DNA of 64,000 nt, from positions 1 to 64,000 of the IMG/VR virus record IMGVR_UViG_3300009365_003824. The stretch is one strand, 5' to 3'. The stretch is from a virus. The notes below the pieces were generated by a model. It saw only the letters and a program-made list of their open reading frames with translations. It was not told where the DNA came from and did not search any database. Of the stretch, positions 6,211 to 39,500 are shown piece by piece; the stretch's first letter is position 1, and every line of letters starts with the position of its first letter. The position numbers and the translations under genes are program-made.

Positions 6211-7833
6211 ATGAAATCAATTATAGTCTGCGGTGGTGTCATCAGCGGAACTGGCAAAGGTATAGCAGCAGCATCTATCGGGCTGTTATTGAAATTAAGA
6301 GGTCAAAGTGTCCAATTAATTAAATTTGATCCATATTTGAACATCAATGCTGGTATTTTAGCTCCTCGTGAGCATGGGGAGTGCTTTCTGTGTGATGATG
6401 GCACAGAAACCGATTTAGATTTAGGCCATTATGAGCGAATTGTTGGGACCACAGTTTCCAAAGACAACATCTGCACATCTGGGACTATTTACAAAGAGTT
6501 GATTGAGGAACAAGAAGACGGCAAATACTTGGGGGACACCATTCAGGTGATCCCCCATGTTACTGACAAAATACAGAATCGCCTCTATAATTTAGGCAAA
6601 ACTTCTGACATTGTTATTGCTGAAATTGGCGGCACAGTAGGCGATACAGAATCGGGGCAGTTCTATCACGCTATAGCTAATTTTAAACAACGAAATTGGG
6701 ACGACTGCATCATTGCAATGGTCGCCCCGATACTTTGGATACCCACTATAAAAGAATTTAAAACAAAGCCCTTACAGGCTGCTGTGAAAGGCTTGCAGAG
6801 TTTTGGTATCCAACCAGAGATGTTGCTCTGTCGAGTGGACAGGCCGGTGCCTGACAATATATTAAATAAGGTTGCTAACCTGACCAACGTGCCCCGCGAG
6901 GCTGTGTTTGATGCCCCAGATGTTTCTACAATCTATAAGGTTCCCATTGAATTCTACAACAGGCATATTGATGATTTTGTTGCCGATAAATTTCGCATAA
7001 AAAGGACTGGTTGTAGAATCCACAAATATCGGGATTTAGTGGAAAAACATGCTGAAGTTACATCATGCGACGAAAGCGACACCCATGTATGCATTGGAAT
7101 TGTGGGTAAATATGAAAACTGCGATGAGGCTTACATTAGTCTAAAAGACGCCTTGTATCATGCAAGCGTAGCAAACGACATTAAGGTGGATATTAAATGG
7201 ATTAATGCAGAAACCCTTGAAAACTACAAGGACATGAGGGGGTTCAACAACCACTTTGGTGATGTAGATGGTGTGATTGTTCCTGGTGGTTTTGATGCGA
7301 GAGGGATAGAAGGCAAAATCAAGGCAACTAAATACTGTCGTGAAAAGAAGATCCCGTTTTTAGGTATTTGTTTAGGTTTGCAGTGTGCTGTAATTGAATA
7401 TGCTCGTTTAATGGGGGCAGAAACCGCCAATAGTCAAGAGTTCGATCCTGATACTGAGTTTCCTGTAGTTCATCTCATGGAAGAACAGAAGGCCGTCAAA
7501 AAGAAATCAGCTACAATGCGACTTGGAGCTTATGATTGTGCTTTAGCTAAAGACAGTCTTGCTCACGAGTTGTATAAAAAGAAAAACATTAGTGAAAGGC
7601 ACCGCCATAGATATGAAGTCAACGCTGATTTAGTCAATGAGTTTCCTGATTTTAACATTTCAGGATTGAATCCTCAAAGGAACCTAGTGGAGATCATGGA
7701 ACTAAAACGTGAGGTTCACCCTTATTTCATAGGGACGCAGGCTCATCCAGAGTTTAAAAGCAGATTAGACAAGCCAGCACCATTATTTAATGGTCTTGTG
7801 AAAGCAGCCATTCAAAAACGTAGAGAAGGTTAA
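6211..7833 (+). CDS. pyrG: CTP synthase
   Basis: 540 residues, full length for the family. The N-terminal synthase domain starts with a P-loop-like segment GGVISGTGKGIAAASIG. The C-terminal class I glutamine amidotransferase domain has the nucleophile C387 in GICLGLQ and the H-P-E of AHPEF near the end. It makes CTP from UTP, ATP and glutamine. Phage-coded CTP synthase is uncommon; here it sits with a reductase, and the window also codes cytidylyltransferase-type and LicD-like enzymes that would consume CTP or CDP-activated groups. The likely role is DNA precursor supply, glycan precursor supply, or both. Confidence 0.95.
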   Translation: MKSIIVCGGVISGTGKGIAAASIGLLLKLRGQSVQLIKFDPYLNINAGILAPREHGECFLCDDGTETDLDLGHYERIVGTTVSKDNICTSGTIYKELIEEQEDGKYLGDTIQVIPHVTDKIQNRLYNLGKTSDIVIAEIGGTVGDTESGQFYHAIANFKQRNWDDCIIAMVAPILWIPTIKEFKTKPLQAAVKGLQSFGIQPEMLLCRVDRPVPDNILNKVANLTNVPREAVFDAPDVSTIYKVPIEFYNRHIDDFVADKFRIKRTGCRIHKYRDLVEKHAEVTSCDESDTHVCIGIVGKYENCDEAYISLKDALYHASVANDIKVDIKWINAETLENYKDMRGFNNHFGDVDGVIVPGGFDARGIEGKIKATKYCREKKIPFLGICLGLQCAVIEYARLMGAETANSQEFDPDTEFPVVHLMEEQKAVKKKSATMRLGAYDCALAKDSLAHELYKKKNISERHRHRYEVNADLVNEFPDFNISGLNPQRNLVEIMELKREVHPYFIGTQAHPEFKSRLDKPAPLFNGLVKAAIQKRREG

Positions 7834-10792: not shown

Positions 10793-11686
10793 TTAGAAAC
10801 CCAAAATTTCTCTTGTCCACCTTTCACCCAGATACTCCTTAGCAAAAGACCTCATGTTTCTAGCGTGTTCGTCATCGGCTGTCCTTATTTTATTCAAGTA
10901 AGCCGTAGCCTTACTGGTATCACCTATGCTAAGGTTAGCATTATATAGGTCCATAACCCTTTTGATGTGCCACGCCATGAAACTTTTAAATTGAGGATCT
11001 AACCTCTCTGGATTTGACATTGCCATACATAATGAATACACAGTAAATTCTAACATCTGCGTAACAGTTTCGCCTCTGCTTTGAATTTTCAAATCTATCC
11101 TTGTAGCTGAGCCATTTGTGTAGGCAATCCATTCATCACATATGTATAAAGGAGTATCCCCCCACGATCTAGCTTGTTGAACCATATAAAGATTGTATGA
11201 CATTCCTCTTAATTGTGGAGAAACATATTTAGCTGCTGCCTGCATGGTGGTTTTTGGCTCTTCCATAACAACAACATTATCATCCAGAACATAAAAAGCA
11301 TTAATTCTACGAGAGCTTTGCTCTCTAAAGTGGCTTCTTAATTTACTGGCTAACCCGTGCGAAGTCTCGTGTGCCCATGTGATACGGTCAGAATCTCTAT
11401 AAATGTGCCCTGCTGGCATATGAGATTCAATATCTGATAACACTTTTCCCAAACTACTATCCGCTTCTTTAACGGGTTGATAGGTTGAAAAGGTCGGCAC
11501 TGGAGTCTGCAATTCAGGCGGCGGTTGTTGTTGAGGCGGCACAGGCACCCCTGGAAGCGGGTGCTGCTGCACTGGCTGCTGTGATTGAAAGTCGCCTGTC
11601 TGAGCCGGTTGCGATGCACCATGAACGAAAAATAAAACCGATATGGCAAACGCTAGAACTAAAAACATCACCCTTCTATTGTTCAT
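10793..11686 (-). CDS. Exported putative HExxH zinc metallopeptidase
   Basis: 297 residues with an N-terminal signal or anchor segment (VMFLVLAFAISVLFFVHG) and a Q/P-rich linker (about 30-65). The folded domain carries HETSH (about residues 106-110), the HExxH zinc signature, and a downstream acidic ICDEWIAY that could give the third ligand. This is the gluzincin pattern, but I do not recognise the family. Shine-Dalgarno aaggagg lies upstream, after an AT-rich GATAAATA box. Inference: an envelope-located peptidase, or an exported host-like domain with a lost function. It is co-transcribed with LicD-like copy 1. Confidence 0.6.
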   Translation of the reverse strand: MNNRRVMFLVLAFAISVLFFVHGASQPAQTGDFQSQQPVQQHPLPGVPVPPQQQPPPELQTPVPTFSTYQPVKEADSSLGKVLSDIESHMPAGHIYRDSDRITWAHETSHGLASKLRSHFREQSSRRINAFYVLDDNVVVMEEPKTTMQAAAKYVSPQLRGMSYNLYMVQQARSWGDTPLYICDEWIAYTNGSATRIDLKIQSRGETVTQMLEFTVYSLCMAMSNPERLDPQFKSFMAWHIKRVMDLYNANLSIGDTSKATAYLNKIRTADDEHARNMRSFAKEYLGERWTREILGF

Positions 11687-11745: not shown

Positions 11746-12339
11746 ATGGACTTTGAAGGCATTAATTTCGATGATGTGATTGCTGACGCCGAGAAAAAGA
11801 AGAAAAAAAAGAAAAAAAAGAATTCCGGCGAAAAAGGCAAACGGGGTGAGAGAAACCTAGCGAAGGTTCTAAAAGAACGATTCGGATTCGAGTTTACTCG
11901 AACTGTTGGATCGGGCAATCGCTGGGGGCAGGTGTCATTTTTACCTCAGCACGCTACTGATACCTATTCAGGAGACATAGTTTGTCCTGAAAACTTTAAA
12001 TTTGTAATCGAATGCAAAGATGGGTATAATGACTTAGATTTGCATTTTTGCGTAGGTTCCAATAAGGGATACGCTAAAATTGATTCTTGGATAGAGCAAT
12101 CCATTGATGAAGCTAAACGAAGCGAAAGATTGCCTATAATTACTTGGAAGAAAGATTACAAACCTTGGGTAGCGCTTGTCCGAAAAATTGACCTACCTAT
12201 GCGCAGGAAGCCATATCTTGTAATCTGGAAGTCCTTCCACATGATATACAACGACTGGGCTGTGTTACCATTAACCGCTTTGTTAGAATTGCCAGACGAA
12301 TTCTGGTTTAAGGAAGCCAAGGGTGGCGAGGAATCCTGA
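11746..12339 (+). CDS. Holliday-junction-resolvase-like PD-(D/E)xK nuclease
   Basis: 197 residues. After an N-terminal lysine run (about 19-27, coded by AAG/AAA repeats) come GERNLAKVLKERFG, a TRTVGSGNRWGQ loop, GDIV and IECK. The E...D...E-x-K set is the Hjc/RRM3-type archaeal resolvase pattern of the PD-(D/E)xK superfamily. A role in resolving branched DNA before packaging is plausible in a phage with gp46/gp47. The start at 11746 is chosen because the other nearby ATG (11741) is out of frame. It overlaps the next gene by 17 bp. Confidence 0.7.
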   Translation: MDFEGINFDDVIADAEKKKKKKKKKNSGEKGKRGERNLAKVLKERFGFEFTRTVGSGNRWGQVSFLPQHATDTYSGDIVCPENFKFVIECKDGYNDLDLHFCVGSNKGYAKIDSWIEQSIDEAKRSERLPIITWKKDYKPWVALVRKIDLPMRRKPYLVIWKSFHMIYNDWAVLPLTALLELPDEFWFKEAKGGEES

Positions 12340-20263: not shown

Positions 20264-20358
20264 TTTTGACTCCTTTCAAAAGTTGACAACTCCTTTCAGG
20301 TCTTCGATTCTATGCCATTCCTACTATTTTATCAATGTCTTATTTGAGGAGTTCAATC

Positions 20359-21201
20359 ATGGTAAGTATTGGTGTGGTGGGCATGGGTTTCGTGGGGGGT
20401 GCTGTTTTTAATGGCTTTAAGTATGAATGTGATGTGCGGGGTTATGATATTGATCCAAAAAAAACAACACACCCATTTGATGTGGTGGTAAATTCTGATT
20501 TCGTATTCGTGTGTCTTCCAACACCTATGGAAACCATAGAAGGGGGCAAGGCAGACATCTGCTACATAGATGATTTTTTTAATTCCCTCAAAGATGAGTT
20601 TAGGCTTAATCAAAAAACGATATTTATAATCAAATCTACGATCCCAGTAGGGACTACAAGACAGCTAAGTGAAAAGTATGAAATACCCATTGTCCATAGC
20701 CCAGAGTTCCTTACAGAAAAAAATGCCCAAGTTGATTTTATTACCCCCAACCGTCAGGTTGTTGGTTGTTTAGATGCGGCTACTAGCTGGAAGGTGGCTA
20801 ATCTATATAAAAGCAGGTTTCCTCAATGTCCCGTGTTTGAGATGGGTCCAGAAGAAGCGGAATTAGTTAAATATATGGCTAATGGTTTCTTGGCTACCAA
20901 GGTTTTGTTTTTTAATGAGATGAAATTGCTGTCTGATAGATTAGGACTTGATTGGCTTAGCATTATGGATGGGGTTTTAAGTGATGGTAGAATAGCCAAG
21001 GCTCACACAAGTATTCCTGGTCACGATGGCGACAGAGGTTTTGGTGGCAAGTGTTTCCCAAAAGATATAAATGCACTTATCGCTGTATTCAAAGACCATG
21101 ATTTAAACCCTTTACAGCTTGAAGCAACTTGGGAACAGAATAAAAAAATAAGAGAAAACTGGGACTGGGCCAGCATAAAAGGGGCGGTGAAAAATCAGTA
21201 A
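20359..21201 (+). CDS. UDP-glucose/GDP-mannose dehydrogenase-like, short form
   Basis: 280 residues from the ATG at 20359, which has gaggag 8 nt upstream. NAD-binding GVVGMGFVGGAVF at the N-terminus, FVCLPTP, the central-helix segment ELVKYMANGFLATKV and the catalytic cysteine in FGGKCFPKD. The family oxidises a sugar nucleotide to a uronic acid (UDP-glucose to UDP-glucuronate in the best-known case). Usual members have about 390-450 residues; this one stops shortly after the catalytic loop and lacks the C-terminal sugar-nucleotide domain, as do some viral relatives. It begins a glycan gene block. Confidence 0.85.
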   Translation: MVSIGVVGMGFVGGAVFNGFKYECDVRGYDIDPKKTTHPFDVVVNSDFVFVCLPTPMETIEGGKADICYIDDFFNSLKDEFRLNQKTIFIIKSTIPVGTTRQLSEKYEIPIVHSPEFLTEKNAQVDFITPNRQVVGCLDAATSWKVANLYKSRFPQCPVFEMGPEEAELVKYMANGFLATKVLFFNEMKLLSDRLGLDWLSIMDGVLSDGRIAKAHTSIPGHDGDRGFGGKCFPKDINALIAVFKDHDLNPLQLEATWEQNKKIRENWDWASIKGAVKNQ

Positions 21202-21254
21202 AACCCCTATACAAGCGGTGAAAACCACCTAAATATAATTTTAGCTAATAATGA

Positions 21255-21298
21255 CCTCCTCGTGCATAACTATGCATTGGAACACTAATGCGAGGAGG
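21255..21298 (+). promoter_or_regulatory. Leader hairpin that hides the Shine-Dalgarno sequence
   Basis: cctcctcg (21255-21262) is the exact complement of cgaggagg (21291-21298), which is the Shine-Dalgarno of the gene at 21306. A second, local hairpin tgcataactatgca sits inside the loop and competes with the top of the long stem. A possible promoter, ctaaatataattttag, lies just upstream. The layout suggests translational control. Confidence 0.6.
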
Positions 21299-21305
21299 CA
21301 TGAAA

Positions 21306-22142
21306 ATGAAAAGAATTTCATTAGTTCTGTTGGCTCTGCTGTTGATCTCTCAAACAGCGCAAGCCGCTAGACTCGTTACGTTTAGCTCATCTCGAAGGTC
21401 CACCTTCTATGTGGATCAAAAGTTCTCCGAAGTTAATAAATCCCTTGGAGTTAAAGTGTTAAAAATAACTTCAGACGGGGATAGTATTGACGGAACCAGA
21501 ATGGATGTACTCGCCATAAGGCTGAAAGAATTAGAAGGTGAATTGGATAATGATGCAATTAGATTAGAAGCCAAAGGAAACATTGATGTAATACTCCAGA
21601 ATAGGACATTGGGCAGATATAAAGTAACCCTACATGAAAGTGTAGATGTAAAGCCGGGGGTGATAAAATCCCACATGTATTTGGTGCAACCTAGACTTAG
21701 ATTGTGCATTCAAGGTAGAACAGTATGGGTGGACGCTTGTTCTTTTAATGCTACTGTAACCAAAGCTGGAAACAAGAGTAAATTTGACGTGAGTGTTTAT
21801 TTAAAGGTCACGGTATCTTTGCCTTGCATATTTCGCAGAATTGGGAATAGAATCGCAAGTAATGCCCTTCACCAAACAACCTGTCAAACTCTCTCTCAAA
21901 CAGTGAACGATATTCTTTGTGCATTGTGCGAAGAAAACCCCGACACACTAGACTTAGCTACCATGTTTTTAAAGACCTTAAAGAAGGTGGGTCTTGAAGA
22001 CGATGCTGTTGTGAAGGTAAAGGTAAGAGGAGTAGAGGTTAAATTTGATGATTTGGAAGAAGTAAAAAAAGCACTAGAAAACAAAGAAGTTAAAGAAACC
22101 ATAAATACAATAGAAGGGACTATATCTGAACTAAAGGAGTGA
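21306..22142 (+). CDS. Exported protein of unknown function
   Basis: 278 residues from the ATG at 21306, 7 nt after gaggagg; an ATG at 21300 is too close to that site. A clear signal peptide, KRISLVLLALLLISQTAQA, ends in an AQA cleavage site. The mature protein has a beta-rich domain with paired cysteines (LCIQGRTVWVDAC) and, near the C-terminus, a long amphipathic helix (VKKALENKEVKETINTIEG). I do not recognise the family. Export implies an envelope role during infection. Translation may be controlled by the leader hairpin. Confidence 0.7.
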   Translation: MKRISLVLLALLLISQTAQAARLVTFSSSRRSTFYVDQKFSEVNKSLGVKVLKITSDGDSIDGTRMDVLAIRLKELEGELDNDAIRLEAKGNIDVILQNRTLGRYKVTLHESVDVKPGVIKSHMYLVQPRLRLCIQGRTVWVDACSFNATVTKAGNKSKFDVSVYLKVTVSLPCIFRRIGNRIASNALHQTTCQTLSQTVNDILCALCEENPDTLDLATMFLKTLKKVGLEDDAVVKVKVRGVEVKFDDLEEVKKALENKEVKETINTIEGTISELKE

Positions 22143-22143
22143 T

Positions 22144-22725
22144 ATGAGCAATAGAATAGCCATCTTATCACATAAGTATAAATTCATTTACATAAAAGCT
22201 CACAAGACTGCCGGGAGCAGCATTTCGGCAGCACTTGTCCAGCATTGTGGCAAAGAAGACAGGATAAGAGCGGTTCCTAAATTCAAACAATATACCAATA
22301 ACCCCCTAGCTGAAGGAGAAGAGGTTCCCGAAGATATTTGGAGTAGTTACTATAAAATGACTGTCATTCGCAATCCTTGGGATTATTTAGTTTCATTGTG
22401 GTGGTGGAGGAAGTATTGGTTCAAAGTCAAATTAAGTTTTGATGATTTTGTCGTAAGGCAAAAAGACCATAACGGTAGGCGTTGTTATTTCAACAAAGAC
22501 GGAAGTTTAGTATGTGACCACTATATGAGGTTTGAACATTTAGAAAAAGATTACACTGATTTTTGCGAATACACTGGATACCCTTTAGAGTTGCCACTCC
22601 CAAGACTGAAAACCTTTCAAAGAGAAGACAAACGACACTACAGAGAATACTACACTAAAGAGACTAAAGACTTTGTTAGTCATAAATTTAAACGTTTCCT
22701 GAAAGTATTTGATTACGAGTTTTAA
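22144..22725 (+). CDS. Sulfotransferase-like protein, copy 1
   Basis: 193 residues; aaggag precedes the ATG, which lies one base after the previous stop. KAHKTAGSSISAAL resembles the 5'-phosphosulfate loop of PAPS-dependent sulfotransferases, and VIRNPWDYLVSLW resembles the 3'-phosphate-binding R...S element. The likely role is sulfation of a carbohydrate. Together with the second sulfotransferase at 61392-62015, it adds a modification step to the glycan kit. The 3' end overlaps the convergent glycosyltransferase by 4 bp. Confidence 0.8.
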   Translation: MSNRIAILSHKYKFIYIKAHKTAGSSISAALVQHCGKEDRIRAVPKFKQYTNNPLAEGEEVPEDIWSSYYKMTVIRNPWDYLVSLWWWRKYWFKVKLSFDDFVVRQKDHNGRRCYFNKDGSLVCDHYMRFEHLEKDYTDFCEYTGYPLELPLPRLKTFQREDKRHYREYYTKETKDFVSHKFKRFLKVFDYEF

Positions 22726-23843: not shown

Positions 23844-24830
23844 ATGAGTTGTCGAGTTATATCATTTAATCGTTGGAAAAACGCTCCTGATACGCATAAG
23901 AAGGTGGAAAGTGGGGATAAACACTTTCTATTTTATGATAGAGATGAGCAAAAACCCATATTTTGTCCGGTGAAATTAGCCGAAGTAGAATCATCTCCTT
24001 TCTTAGGTTCTCAGCCCCAACACAAGCCGTGGGAAGGCAATTGTGATAAGAAACCTTGGGAGTATGAGGTCACAGCCGTCATTCCATCTTTAAATACGCC
24101 TGAGACGCTCCCTGTGTGCATAGAGCTACTTAGACTACAAACAGTGCGTCCATTTATTATGATTATAGATACGGGCAGCACGGGCGAAGAATGGGAAGCT
24201 ACTCAAAAATTAATTGCACCCGATGTAGAGGTTCATTCTATTAAGTTGCATGGTGTACGACACCCATCAGATTATCCTGCAATGGCTATGGATGCTGCTT
24301 TTGCCATGTGTAGGACTGAATATCTTTTTGCAACACACGCAGACGTATTTTTAAGGCGTCAAGATTTCGTGGAAGATTTACTTAAACTCTGCAAGATTGA
24401 ATCCCCTGTTGTAGGTTATCAATTAAGTCCACGAAACCACAAGGATTGGAAAGGTATGTGTAGTCATACAGCGTCTATGTATCACATTCCCACAATGGAC
24501 AGAATAGGTTTTGGCTGGAATCTAAGGAGATTGTGTAATCAGTATGGGATAGAAGATTATACTCCTGTGCCAAGCAGACCTAATTGGCCGGATACAGAGA
24601 TATTAGGTAATTACATTTTAAAAAAACATGACATCACTCCTCACCTTGTAGGCGAGGAAGAGAACAACGAAAGAACTTTAGATGAAAATTTAGACCACAT
24701 AAGAAGTTATACATCCCTAAAATTATATGGAGGCGAAAATTTCGCCAGAGCAAAGGATCTTTTTAATAAAGCTAAAGAAAACGCTGAAAAAAGAATAGAA
24801 AAATGGAAAAAAATTTCTCGTGCGCAGTAA
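23844..24830 (+). CDS. Family 2-like glycosyltransferase A1
   Basis: 328 residues. GT-A start EVTAVIPSLNTPETLPVCI, IIDTGSTGEEW, and the metal motif FATHADVFLRR (about residues 165-175). It is a close paralogue of the protein at 32480-33316: both share PWE-G-x-C-x-KKPWEYEVTAV, HPSDYPA-AMD, and the NWPDTE-LGNYIL end region. A 70-residue N-terminal extension distinguishes this copy. The pair is separated by 8 kb of tail genes, which suggests duplication within the phage. Confidence 0.82.
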   Translation: MSCRVISFNRWKNAPDTHKKVESGDKHFLFYDRDEQKPIFCPVKLAEVESSPFLGSQPQHKPWEGNCDKKPWEYEVTAVIPSLNTPETLPVCIELLRLQTVRPFIMIIDTGSTGEEWEATQKLIAPDVEVHSIKLHGVRHPSDYPAMAMDAAFAMCRTEYLFATHADVFLRRQDFVEDLLKLCKIESPVVGYQLSPRNHKDWKGMCSHTASMYHIPTMDRIGFGWNLRRLCNQYGIEDYTPVPSRPNWPDTEILGNYILKKHDITPHLVGEEENNERTLDENLDHIRSYTSLKLYGGENFARAKDLFNKAKENAEKRIEKWKKISRAQ

Positions 24831-24870
24831 ATACATAGGGTTTTTTCTACTTAATCTTCGAGGAGGGCTT

Positions 24871-25458
24871 ATGGCAGTTGAATATCTAAACAATAAGGTA
24901 TTCGAGAGAACTATTCAGGAATTTCAAGTGTCGAAGAGAGAGAAAAGAAAGTACGAATTGATAATGGAAGACCTCCAAGGGTCGAAAGAAAGGCGCATAA
25001 AAAGAAGCAATCAAAATAAGAGGCGAGGCAAGCTACTTGCAACACTCTTAGACCAGAAGGAAGAGGAATATGGCTCTGTGTTGGGTGATTTTAATGTGTT
25101 GCAGGACAATTTAGCCCTGGCATTTTATACTCTGAGTGAAAACCTAGTGAAATATGCCCAGTTTCAGTTCATAGAGGAAGATGATGCTATTCAGGAAGGT
25201 GTAGTGATTTGTTTTGAGAAAATCGACAGATTCAATCCTGATAAAGGCAAGGCTTTTAACTATATGACCACTTGTATTTTAAACCACTTTAGGCAACTTT
25301 ACAGAACGGCAAGAAACTACCAGGAATTAAAAAAGAAGTATCTCGCATTTATCCAACAGGAAATTGACCGAATTATAATTCACAATGGCAAACAAACCTC
25401 TTTATGTAACAACACTACACCAGTTCCAGTAGGAAATAGTAGACAAAGAAATGATTAA
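24871..25458 (+). CDS. 55: Late transcription sigma factor, gp55-like
   Basis: 195 residues from the ATG at 24871, preceded by gaggagg. VEYLNNKVFERTI at the N-terminus matches the start of T4 gp55. The core EEDDAIQEGVVICFEKIDRFNPDKGKAFNYM...LNHFRQLYR is sigma region 2, which recognises the -10 element; regions 1 and 4 are absent, as in gp55. T4 gp55 directs the host polymerase to TATAAATA late promoters with help from gp33 and the sliding clamp. TATA-rich boxes before many genes in this window fit its presence. Confidence 0.88.
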   Translation: MAVEYLNNKVFERTIQEFQVSKREKRKYELIMEDLQGSKERRIKRSNQNKRRGKLLATLLDQKEEEYGSVLGDFNVLQDNLALAFYTLSENLVKYAQFQFIEEDDAIQEGVVICFEKIDRFNPDKGKAFNYMTTCILNHFRQLYRTARNYQELKKKYLAFIQQEIDRIIIHNGKQTSLCNNTTPVPVGNSRQRND

Positions 25459-27068: not shown

Positions 27069-29555
27069 TTAAAAATCGGTTCCAACGTAATCGCTGTTAT
27101 ATTCAAAGGAACCTGTTCTGTGTATTGAAAACTCAATAAATATGAATTCAACAGCTTTGGTTGGTTGAATTCCGATTCTTGCCCAAAATTCATTTCTGTC
27201 TACTCTGTCTGGAGTGTTAATATCCCAGTCAGCTTGTATTCTGTAGTCCGTCAAACCTCTACCTGACCTAATAGTGTCTAGGACTCGTGAAGCTATTGTG
27301 ATAAATTTAGAGTGGAAGATGTCATCATGCGGATCAAAGAGCAATCTTCGGGAATCTGCACGAATCCTCTTCTCAGCTACAAACATCATTCTTCGGACGT
27401 TAATTCTATCTAATGCAGTTGGTGTTCGTTGTAAAGTCTTTTGACCCCAAGCAACGAAACCATCAATGTCTCTAAATTGAACGATTGGATTGACAGCATT
27501 TCTCCAACCATAGAGCAAATCTCTTTCTGCAAGAGTTGGACGTTGGAATACGTCTTTAACATTCGGAACCTGTCCTCTTGAGGCACCAGCAGGTGCGTAC
27601 CAAGGAGCGGATAGCGAATCGCTACGTGCAATTGTTGCTAAAACGCTTCCAGACGGTGGAACCCAAACATCGACCTGATTGAAAGAATCAAACTGCTTCA
27701 GCCACGGCCAGTAAAGTGCCGCAAAGTCAGAATCCAGTCTGGTATCATTCAGTGGATGCCTTCCGTTGTGCCAATCCACAATCTCTTGTAGATACAAGCC
27801 AAACGGCGGGTCAAGAATTCCCAAACAATCCATTCTCTCATTTTGGCAAACATCAATGATGCCTTCCATAACGGAAGTAGATGAATGACCCGGAGCGGCC
27901 AGAAGGTCAATATCAACCTGTTCTGGTTCGGACAGAGCGTAAAGACCTGTCATTTCGTAAAGATCACCGATGATTAAATCATCTTGGTCATCTGGATCAG
28001 CCGGAATACCATCGCTACCACCTGCTAAATCGTAGGTGCCATCTGCTGGGGATGCCGGATTGTCTGGATCGTCTGTAACTCTAACCCAGTTAGAAACGAT
28101 AGAGAGGAAGCTCTCAACATAAAATCGGCTAGTAGCGTCTTTGGTCAAATTGCCCCAAGACTCTGTTTGCGTGCTGTTGTTATAAACTTCCAAAGTAAAG
28201 GTGCCTTGTCTCAGGTCATTAGTAATTACGACCTGGGTGTTGTTACCATCAATACCTGGGCTGTCAGCAGCCAAGCTGAAGGTTACATCGCCGGTTGCGG
28301 CTGCATCGCCTACGACAATGCCGTAAGTATCAATTGACGCATCACCGGAAACACCTGCTGGACTTACACCAGTGTCAGCTTGCGTTGGGCCAGCAGTTGG
28401 GAAGCCGAAGATAGGAGCACCAGAGCTACCCGGTTTTACACGCAATGCTGCGTCTACACCGTGATGCAATGATACGATAGAAATACTCTTCAAACTTACC
28501 AAACCGGCCAGTTCTGGATCGCCTGATACTTCAGTGGGCACGGAAGCCGCGTCACCACCGATAGCTACAAAGCCACCCGGCAAACTTGCGATTTGTTCAT
28601 TAATTTCATCAACAACTTCATCAGTTGTGGATGTGATACCTTCCAAGTCTCCCAAGTCTACGACTTGAACTACTTGGTCGATACTTGTACTGTCTGTTCC
28701 ATCTACCACAATCTCCAAAAGCACATCTGTTTCGGAGGTTAAGTCCCAAGTGTCTGCTACACCTAAGCTGCTAGAATCTGGGTCTGGGTAGCCCGTGGTG
28801 GTTCCAAGAACCTGAGCACGAGTCATTCCAGTTCCGAGTCCAGTCACATTAGGTCCACCAAGAGCTACTGTGGAACCGCCGTAAATTGCGTCTTTGACTG
28901 ATACCAACTCAAGTGAGGCATCAGGACCAAACGCGAAAGTGGTGCGAACACCGATTTCATTTCCTGTAGTGCAGAAAAATTCAATCCCATCATCATCTGT
29001 AAGTTGAAGATTTAAGTCTTCAACTAATTGGAGGCAGCTATACTTATCACCTGTTAGCGGAGCCGGACGATTTGCGTCGGCGTAAACTAGCAAGGTTTTT
29101 GAGGATAGAACTGTATTTAGTCTCCAACGGAAGAAGGAATCCACAGCAAAGCTGTAAACTGGAAGTGCTGTTGGAGATGCAACATTGGACGTAATAATAA
29201 TTTGTCCACCAGCAGCAGGAACTTCGATTTCAGCCGTAGTTGCTTGCTCCCAGCTTGTGTTGTTTTCCTCGGCCACACGGACAATCCAAAGCTCGTTAGC
29301 AATAGCTAAGTATTGCGTAGCGGCGTAAAGTAAATACGGATCGCCTGTTTGGGGGTGAGGATACCCAAAAACTTCAGTTAATTCTCTTCTAGTTCTGATT
29401 TGTGTTGGGAGGTTAATCGGTCCCTTACTAGCAAATCCTACTAATCCAGCACGATGGAAAGATGATCCTACGTCATAGAAACTCAAGTCGGTTTCTTTAA
29501 TTCTCACCGACGCTGAGATTGTATTAGATGGAGGAAACCCTTTTAAAATTGCCAT
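27069..29555 (-). CDS. Contractile tail sheath protein, gp18-like
   Basis: 828 residues, longer than T4 gp18 (659). N-terminus VRIKETDLSFYDVGSSFHRA with GFASKGPINLPTQI is typical of sheath proteins. The C-terminal domain has YYAPAG-like WYAPAGASRG, LLYGWRNAVNPIVQF, GFVAWGQKTLQ, INVRRMMF and a final strand before YVGTDF. A large Gly/Asp/Val-rich central stretch (about residues 200-470) looks like inserted surface beta domains. The gene precedes the two tube genes, as in the 18-19 order of T4. Confidence 0.93.
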   Translation of the reverse strand: MAILKGFPPSNTISASVRIKETDLSFYDVGSSFHRAGLVGFASKGPINLPTQIRTRRELTEVFGYPHPQTGDPYLLYAATQYLAIANELWIVRVAEENNTSWEQATTAEIEVPAAGGQIIITSNVASPTALPVYSFAVDSFFRWRLNTVLSSKTLLVYADANRPAPLTGDKYSCLQLVEDLNLQLTDDDGIEFFCTTGNEIGVRTTFAFGPDASLELVSVKDAIYGGSTVALGGPNVTGLGTGMTRAQVLGTTTGYPDPDSSSLGVADTWDLTSETDVLLEIVVDGTDSTSIDQVVQVVDLGDLEGITSTTDEVVDEINEQIASLPGGFVAIGGDAASVPTEVSGDPELAGLVSLKSISIVSLHHGVDAALRVKPGSSGAPIFGFPTAGPTQADTGVSPAGVSGDASIDTYGIVVGDAAATGDVTFSLAADSPGIDGNNTQVVITNDLRQGTFTLEVYNNSTQTESWGNLTKDATSRFYVESFLSIVSNWVRVTDDPDNPASPADGTYDLAGGSDGIPADPDDQDDLIIGDLYEMTGLYALSEPEQVDIDLLAAPGHSSTSVMEGIIDVCQNERMDCLGILDPPFGLYLQEIVDWHNGRHPLNDTRLDSDFAALYWPWLKQFDSFNQVDVWVPPSGSVLATIARSDSLSAPWYAPAGASRGQVPNVKDVFQRPTLAERDLLYGWRNAVNPIVQFRDIDGFVAWGQKTLQRTPTALDRINVRRMMFVAEKRIRADSRRLLFDPHDDIFHSKFITIASRVLDTIRSGRGLTDYRIQADWDINTPDRVDRNEFWARIGIQPTKAVEFIFIEFSIHRTGSFEYNSDYVGTDF

Positions 29556-39000: not shown

Positions 39001-39500
39001 AAATACTGATCCCACTTATCCTTGTTTTCTCTCAGCCATTCAGGATCGATTTTCTTTTGTAAGTCTATCCACAAATCCTTGAGTCCAGTTCGGATGTTTG
39101 GAAAAGTGTAAGTGTGAGTGTGTTCTTCTTTTGGTTGTGTTGCCCACTTTTTAATAATGACATCTTCTCTGTCAGGATATTGAAAATCCTTAACCTCAGA
39201 GGTTCTGGTGTAGTCCTTTGACATATCTGGCCCAACATCGCCTTCACTACCATACTTGGCTCTAAGCATATCTTCACCACCTTGGTTCTCCCATGCTTGG
39301 GCCACTTTCAATAAACCAGAAGAATATCTCCACCACATAGCCATCATCCAACATTCGGATGGAAATTGTTGTAAATATTCCAGATCCTTTTTGTTGAACA
39401 CGATGGGAATTTTATAGTTATTTCCTTGATACATGGCCATTTCAAGGAAAACTTGGTTCTTTTTATCATTATTCAAGTAATCAGCAAACGTCAATCCCAT
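36030..39500 (-). CDS. Giant virion-type protein (1,156 residues) with leader-like start
   Basis: Largest protein of the window. MGLTFADYLNND resembles the capsid-targeting leaders and FLEM at about 18-21 offers an L-E site. No transmembrane segment or known enzyme motif is seen. The middle and C-terminal parts contain long helical stretches, Gly/Ser/Asp-rich linkers (about 690-760) and a Pro/Ala/Thr-rich linker (about 980-1015). Size, mosaic build and position between structural genes suggest a head-packaged or ejected protein, or a large structural component. A weak Shine-Dalgarno aggtg precedes the ATG. Confidence 0.6.
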   Translation of the reverse strand: MGLTFADYLNNDKKNQVFLEMAMYQGNNYKIPIVFNKKDLEYLQQFPSECWMMAMWWRYSSGLLKVAQAWENQGGEDMLRAKYGSEGDVGPDMSKDYTRTSEVKDFQYPDREDVIIKKWATQPKEEHTHTYTFPNIRTGLKDLWIDLQKKIDPEWLRENKDKWDQYLRQGYGLHDYDLTEPLEAIYVADDEEVQQGRATAGEPIVARDPPSVFNRSFKTAQLEAIRRNLRAWTKVNELRLAEGDVPDEWTAPDGKSYPIKWVDNVQVDGSIGKNPTGKPPAGGPWAGGKALKYKLPCIKIALPGYQIADERSGEVRQVPNGAYYIPVLLPGTIFAKWNDELKRHEPPIKVKKDDFILRQFNKLDVKGKIGQLRKMPLVDHTARDLAIEPIPVDANLERDVDWQPRNEENLKKFIRACKEELRLSDKWIVLLDDLIDKAGTEAFQGKISIMNLCRATNPRAFGGEAGFGINYKAYPGNGRPREDIDQFTRSIPLLHDEDQQTLRDNRIALPDLVQHYGTPSQTQLQAIWVTGGINNSSTDYALNKKQDEERIKRAIGEDVWAEIYKEYTRMAWGAVQSILAKSGDADRGIINTYGESLVQNAVMGLILSAHQEVNIPLKIDDKASAAAGREVYVLDEKKHKNGKRQAARVGVLKQRIQASIARLKRHGIGADSLNKSADPSGSGEPGAELGDLAQKDDADGGMSDDALSTMGHSRRGKNRFQGVGRYGAQGFGSNLGARQAATLETIDKKTMEENWGDVESSYRTILEAIQSGKHPSLQGKALSGAEAERKAASLLKSYLKEKGIQLKSGDSVVATLYQTIRDEKLVLQNAPAGEIQARAREYTPDTMKTDPLTRGPDSEQLEIQQDAIDELEAMADDGMMVVPILDQETNKKENKEIDLTKVSVESKEHWIGMLMGKFERAFVPKEEFHKYFPAIVEKIASVSAGVSATPKTKTPDAVSPQGQPAAPAAQPSPRATTARSPATERGKTMVGDVIASLRANDENAPRARELLKSNAELRGILTNPTALLAAYPEDPRLAKQIQILQSASKRLGFMEMSLPIGYPDLPNGKYSDKIRGEITRKGAQAWGAAGSRTGGLSPIEDPITKRSKEDTGGEGDGLPIQKWTSLKEHLNHKSVEIRKRLLKERVEKEIENAKSI

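Follow-up and report, generated by a model that had tools for sequence, protein, structure and literature searches.

A hairpin that hides the Shine-Dalgarno sequence of an exported-protein gene, a probable translational brake in an uncultivated phage with T4-type parts

Hairpins that hide the Shine-Dalgarno sequence (SD) and act as translational brakes are already known from phage T4. According to those parts of PMC3014915 that deal with T4 gene e, early transcripts of this gene form a structure that covers the initiation region; transcripts made late begin inside this region and are translated. The leaders of I-TevI, segB and Aeh1 mobE are described in portions of PMC2988022 as resembling that of T4 e, and the sections of both reports that treat such leaders (PMC3014915, PMC2988022) also list soc, 39, 25 and 26 as T4 genes with a sequestered ribosome-binding site. 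In this report, we describe what is probably another instance, located on the gene for a probably secreted cargo protein.

Several properties relate this element to the known systems. In T4 e, as presented in the gene e portion of PMC3014915, structure in the initiation region cuts synthesis from full-leader transcripts, and the same would be expected here, in a phage that also has a T4-type sheath. However, T4 late promoters of this kind sit where the 5' strand of the hairpin is encoded, whereas our best promoter-like site precedes the hairpin. The leaders of I-TevI, segB and mobE, in the account given in part of PMC2988022, share with ours a very stable stem over the SD, a few nucleotides ahead of the AUG. 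Those genes encode homing endonucleases, whereas the present gene encodes a signal-peptide protein, and no late promoter was convincingly found within its hairpin. By analogy, the element resembles the repressed state of T4 e/I-TevI-type leaders.

The stretch of DNA that we analyzed (hereafter, the window) comprises 64,000 nucleotides of a virus record 105,941 bases long. The features on which the argument depends are as follows.

20335-21201, plus strand: UDP-glucose dehydrogenase-like gene, the 5' neighbor
21230-21235, plus strand: TAAATA, a late-promoter-like element that fits the motif TA[TAC]ATA and lies 5' of the hairpin
21255-21262, plus strand: 5' arm of the hairpin (anti-SD), CCTCCTCG
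21264-21275, plus strand: apical hairpin A, GCAU/AUGC, predicted by folding; the TGCATAACTATGCA (21263-21276) of a preliminary description
21274-21291, plus strand: competing apical hairpin B, GCAUUGG-AACA-CUAAUGC, in the second-best fold
21291-21298, plus strand: 3' arm, which includes the SD AGGAGG, CGAGGAGG
21306-22142, plus strand: gene for a 278-amino-acid protein with a signal-peptide-like N-terminus (MKRISLVLLALLLISQTAQA); a start at 21300 is also possible
22144-22725, plus strand: sulfotransferase-like gene, the 3' neighbor
24820-25458, plus strand: late-sigma-like gene (profile match)
27069-29555, minus strand: T4-type contractile tail sheath (PHROG tail sheath, E 3e-73)

The two 8-nucleotide arms are 100% complementary and are separated by 28 nucleotides. 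The 3' arm consists of a C followed by GAGGAGG, the SD of the gene at 21306, and the resulting stem of 8 to 9 base pairs is GC-rich. For positions 21245-21325, the minimum free energy (MFE) is -24.8 kcal/mol (z -5.33), and none of 200 shuffled sequences was equally stable. A reading as an intrinsic terminator was dropped, because there is no U-run beyond either side of the hairpin and the terminator scan has no entry there.

Candidate starts for the gene lie at 21288, 21300 and 21306. The latter two are ATG codons, and that at 21306 is 7 nucleotides past GGAGG. The in-frame start at 21288, which is within the loop, was set aside because it has only a weak SD. Also set aside, for want of a preceding SD, was an open reading frame at 21251 as a coupling device; as read by eye, it has 39 codons and overlaps the gene out of frame. 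The signal peptide was likewise assigned by eye. Searches with the 278-amino-acid protein found nothing in Pfam and PHROGs (E 0.001) or in PADLOC (0.1), and gave one NCBIfam match under the cut-off and PDB matches with E values of 0.23 or worse. Its structure prediction (mean pLDDT 35) is not usable.

To assess chance pairing, the SD and start were held fixed and the upstream part alone was shuffled (n = 2000). The mean unpaired probability of the SD in the natural sequence, 0.0006, was matched by none of these shuffles, and its MFE was matched by one. When such shuffles were made for all 99 genes with an SD, none of 3960 reached the limits for both MFE and occlusion. The MFE is also the second lowest among 130 gene starts folded genome-wide, the starts having been called by a custom script rather than a standard gene finder. 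By a cruder measure, the SD is covered by a perfect stem of 8 or more pairs in 7 of 703 SD genes of the phage and its relatives, versus 5 of 2109 shuffles; among the seven are a duplicated pair of loci and a gene whose start is doubtful. An 8-pair match is therefore not very rare by itself, but the whole structure is. The SD lies in a stable stem beyond chance expectation, which places the element among SD-sequestering hairpins. The preliminary description had proposed that the arms pair exactly and block the SD of the gene at 21306, and the complementarity, the z score and the SD-fixed shuffles all bear this out.

In the best fold, three helices meet in a three-way junction: the SD stem, GCAU/AUGC (21264-21275) and AUUGG/CUAAU (21276-21289). 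In the second fold, GCAUUGG/CUAAUGC (21274-21280/21285-21291) replaces the first small hairpin, and the outer pairs of hairpin B and hairpin A are mutually exclusive. The two folds have nearly equal energies (-19.4 versus -19.0 kcal/mol for 21251-21300). The earlier suggestion of competing loop hairpins thus stands insofar as two near-equal apical folds exist, but the main competitor of the TGCAT/ATGCA hairpin is GCATTGG/CTAATGC rather than the long stem merely extended. A further suggestion, that the alternative folds switch translation, is not supported, the SD being within the stem in both of them. Indeed, the SD is paired in every listed fold down to -15.4 kcal/mol.

Control by temperature or by a ligand had also been proposed. 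In the computation, the unpaired probability of the SD rises from 0.00006 at 20°C through 0.0015 (37°C) and 0.010 (50°C) to 0.028 at 60°C, so warming from 20 to 60°C does not release the SD as in an RNA thermometer, and from 4 to 50°C the value never exceeds about 0.010. FourU and ROSE elements are RNA thermometers in which a 5'-UTR hairpin pairs with the SD. The present hairpin shares this arrangement, but its stem is GC-rich and exact and does not melt at biological temperatures by the model. Searches with Rfam covariance models gave no matches at the gathering score within the window, and thus no known riboswitch or thermometer family; the sole weak match, with E 3.1, is on the opposite strand and is to an antisense sRNA of Enterococcus.

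For modeled transcripts with 5' ends anywhere from 20900 to 21250, the unpaired probability of the SD is 0.0010 to 0.0015 throughout, and cutting at 21256, 21260 or 21266 raises it to 0.24, 0.52 or 0.30, respectively. A transcript starting at 21260, in which the 5' arm is gone, thus has a mean unpaired probability of 0.52 rather than 0.0015. The cost of opening the SD is 10.3 to 10.6 kcal/mol with the 5' arm (5' ends 21202, 21241 and 21246), compared with a modeled 5.7 to 7.2 kcal/mol without it (5' ends 21260-21284; 6.8 kcal/mol for 21260).

The gene adjoins glycosyltransferase genes and occupies a region that differs among relatives. In contig L004, whose sheath protein is 58% identical, the genes flanking the locus are retained, but there is no match to the dehydrogenase, the exported-protein gene or the sulfotransferase (for the last, only an 18-residue match with E 0.52). 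The L004 locus carries different cargo instead, including another signal-peptide-like protein. In L005, all three genes are likewise missing. Because both contigs lack these genes, we regard the locus as a variable cargo region. Among viral contigs, homologues of the exported protein occur only in a near-identical contig, and none was found in phages, plasmids or genome contigs (one genome per species). Nothing credible turned up either when the loci of sheath relatives were searched with tblastn; the best match (L085, E 0.023) appears by eye to lie inside a transposase-like open reading frame.

The near-identical contig differs by 2 mismatches in 10,834 bases (99.98% identity); positions 21150-21350 are identical, and the hairpin is unchanged. 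It is the only homologous locus found, and so close a match carries no information on covariation. The detailed hairpin pattern occurs elsewhere only in this contig, and a looser pattern of the stem plus ATGAAA occurs in four stretches, three of which are other contigs with different downstream genes. A 10-bp direct repeat, GCGGTGAAAA, is present at 21184-21193 and 21215-21224, 31 nucleotides apart, and spans the end of the dehydrogenase gene; it possibly marks a cassette edge. The glycosyltransferase gene at 23844-24830 has a second copy with 62% protein identity at 6255-7067 of the near-identical contig, L003.

Upstream of the hairpin, TAAATA is overlapped by TATAAT at 21234-21239. A first motif search of upstream regions mostly recovered the CCTCC of divergent SDs; the late-promoter-like motif emerged from a seeded search and was thus not discovered blind. 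TATATA is enriched in upstream regions (27 occurrences versus 2.0 expected), and of the 61 that have a gap of 25 nucleotides or more, 33 contain TA[TAC]ATA-like sites, at 23 to 77 nucleotides ahead of the start. At 21230-21235, the P value per position is 0.003 with the seeded motif and 0.0008 with a hand-picked matrix, and the 12-mer begins 79 nucleotides ahead of the ATG. Given about 95 positions, this match is suggestive of a promoter but is not proof. If the T4 spacing from late promoter to start, applied by analogy, holds, the mRNA would begin near 21241-21246 and include the whole hairpin. With TAAATA 5' of the hairpin, the predicted transcript of the gene itself would thus carry the entire brake. 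Near-palindromic TATATA elements also occur in many short divergent intergenic regions of the window (for example, 35096/35125, 54547/54624 and 60452/60496), and are possibly bidirectional late promoters.

We conclude that the hairpin is probably a translational brake on a cargo gene of the variable region, and that its release, if there is any, would most likely come through loss of the 5' arm. In any transcript with this arm, whether it comes from read-through of the UDP-sugar dehydrogenase gene or is initiated from the promoter-like element TAAATA (21230), the stem would hold the SD so that little of the exported cargo protein is made, and low expression may be its purpose. An increase would be explained most economically by mRNA that is made or trimmed without the 5' arm, following the logic of T4 gene e and I-TevI, and not by flipping of the two loop hairpins. 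Cleavage by an RNase and transcription from an internal start are candidate ways to lose the arm, and its loss raises SD accessibility in the computation. The documented T4-type hairpins, taken with the T4-type sheath and late-sigma-like gene of this phage, support the brake by analogy, and the excess of strongly occluded SDs in this genome, described below, also favors it. Several considerations count against it: the strongest variant known relies on a late promoter in the hairpin region, where the best loop site here is weak; it would be odd for a gene with a perfect AGGAGG to be kept nearly silent by a brake that has no visible release; and in the model opening the SD would remain costly even after the 5' arm is lost. 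If the brake is real, T4-style translational braking extends to the gene of a secreted cargo protein in an uncultivated phage that has T4-type parts. It would also follow that a gene's own predicted promoter can give a transcript that includes such a brake, so that a mode of release other than promoter choice would be needed.

Among the alternatives, a timing device like those of T4 e and I-TevI fares best, although we consider it unlikely. Here a late promoter would lie within the hairpin at CATAACTA (21265-21272, identical at 6 of 8 positions to TATAAATA); late transcripts starting at about 21278 would lack the 5' arm and be translated, and earlier read-through would be silent. Such devices are documented for T4 e, I-TevI, segB and Aeh1 mobE in the parts of PMC3014915 and PMC2988022 noted above. 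In its favor, a late-sigma-like gene is present in the phage, CATAAC and ATAACT occur upstream of its genes more often than expected (8 versus 1.0 and 11 versus 1.9), and the upstream dehydrogenase gene is co-directional, so read-through is possible. However, the loop site is poor by the phage's own motif (the best, GCATAACTATGC, has P 0.034 per position with the seeded motif and 0.023 with the hand-picked matrix), the better site 5' of the hairpin would place the 5' arm in the mRNA, and opening the SD still costs 6.2 kcal/mol from a start at 21278. Judged by its sequence, then, the hairpin seems to lack the internal late promoter that defines the late-timed class.

It is improbable that the structure is a relic or by-product of outward-facing SDs, with a 5' arm that remains from the SD of a minus-strand gene since lost. 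Many divergent gene pairs in this genome have SDs that form CCTCC...GGAGG inverted repeats (for example, 35096/35125 and 60452/60496), a similar repeat lies between the minus-strand gene at 11686 and the plus-strand gene at 11746, and TCCTCC is overrepresented upstream of genes (8 versus 1.5), consistent with the CCTCC of the motif search. Here, though, the upstream gene is on the same strand, the minus strand has no start codon at SD distance (21254 and below), and the match of the arms is exact and full length.

Somewhat less probable again is a 5'-end stabilizer, in which a hairpin about 10 nucleotides from the end of an mRNA starting at about 21241-21246 guards against 5'-end-dependent decay, and pairing of the SD is a side effect or modest tuning. 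The promoter-like element directly upstream fits this idea, but the start is a prediction and not a mapped end, and the stem matches the SD to the base, a burial that a stabilizer does not need.

Strong occlusion is not confined to this gene: the unpaired probability is below 0.001 in 4 of the 99 SD genes of the genome, versus 0.35 expected. These are the present gene, an epimerase-like gene (56305, minus strand), a nucleotidyltransferase-like gene (50622, minus strand) and a gene at 39453 (plus strand) with a doubtful start. We can imagine, as a long shot, that similar hairpins over the SDs of a small set of genes, notably the two sugar-nucleotide genes and the exported-protein gene beside the UDP-sugar dehydrogenase, form one coordinated, stage-dependent translational program of host-surface remodeling, with a phage or host factor removing or binding the 5' arms. 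Least credible is an RNA thermometer, riboswitch or true two-state switch, for which the near-equal apical folds speak, but against which stand the burial of the SD in both folds, its slight modeled opening even at 50 and 60°C, and the Rfam result.

Two other loci have related arrangements. In contig L012 (16760-16840), a 16-bp perfect inverted repeat covers the SD of an HNH endonuclease gene (16838, plus strand), which lies behind the apparent end of a co-directional open reading frame; the arrangement recalls the hairpins over the SDs of T4 homing-endonuclease genes. The local MFE fold has a different pairing, on a stretch that is missing most of the 5' arm. On sequence grounds, this gene is a better formal candidate for the late-timed class than is the exported-protein gene. 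Between the divergent genes at 11686 and 11746 in the window, a 10-pair inverted repeat, CATCCTCCTT/AAGGAGGATG, covers the SD of the minus-strand, signal-peptide-like gene at 11686. The plus-strand GGAGG is about 19 nucleotides from the ATG of the 11746 gene and may not be the SD of that gene. The loop contains the perfect palindrome TAAATATATTTA, and if transcription starts in the loop, the geometry would be like that of T4 gene e.
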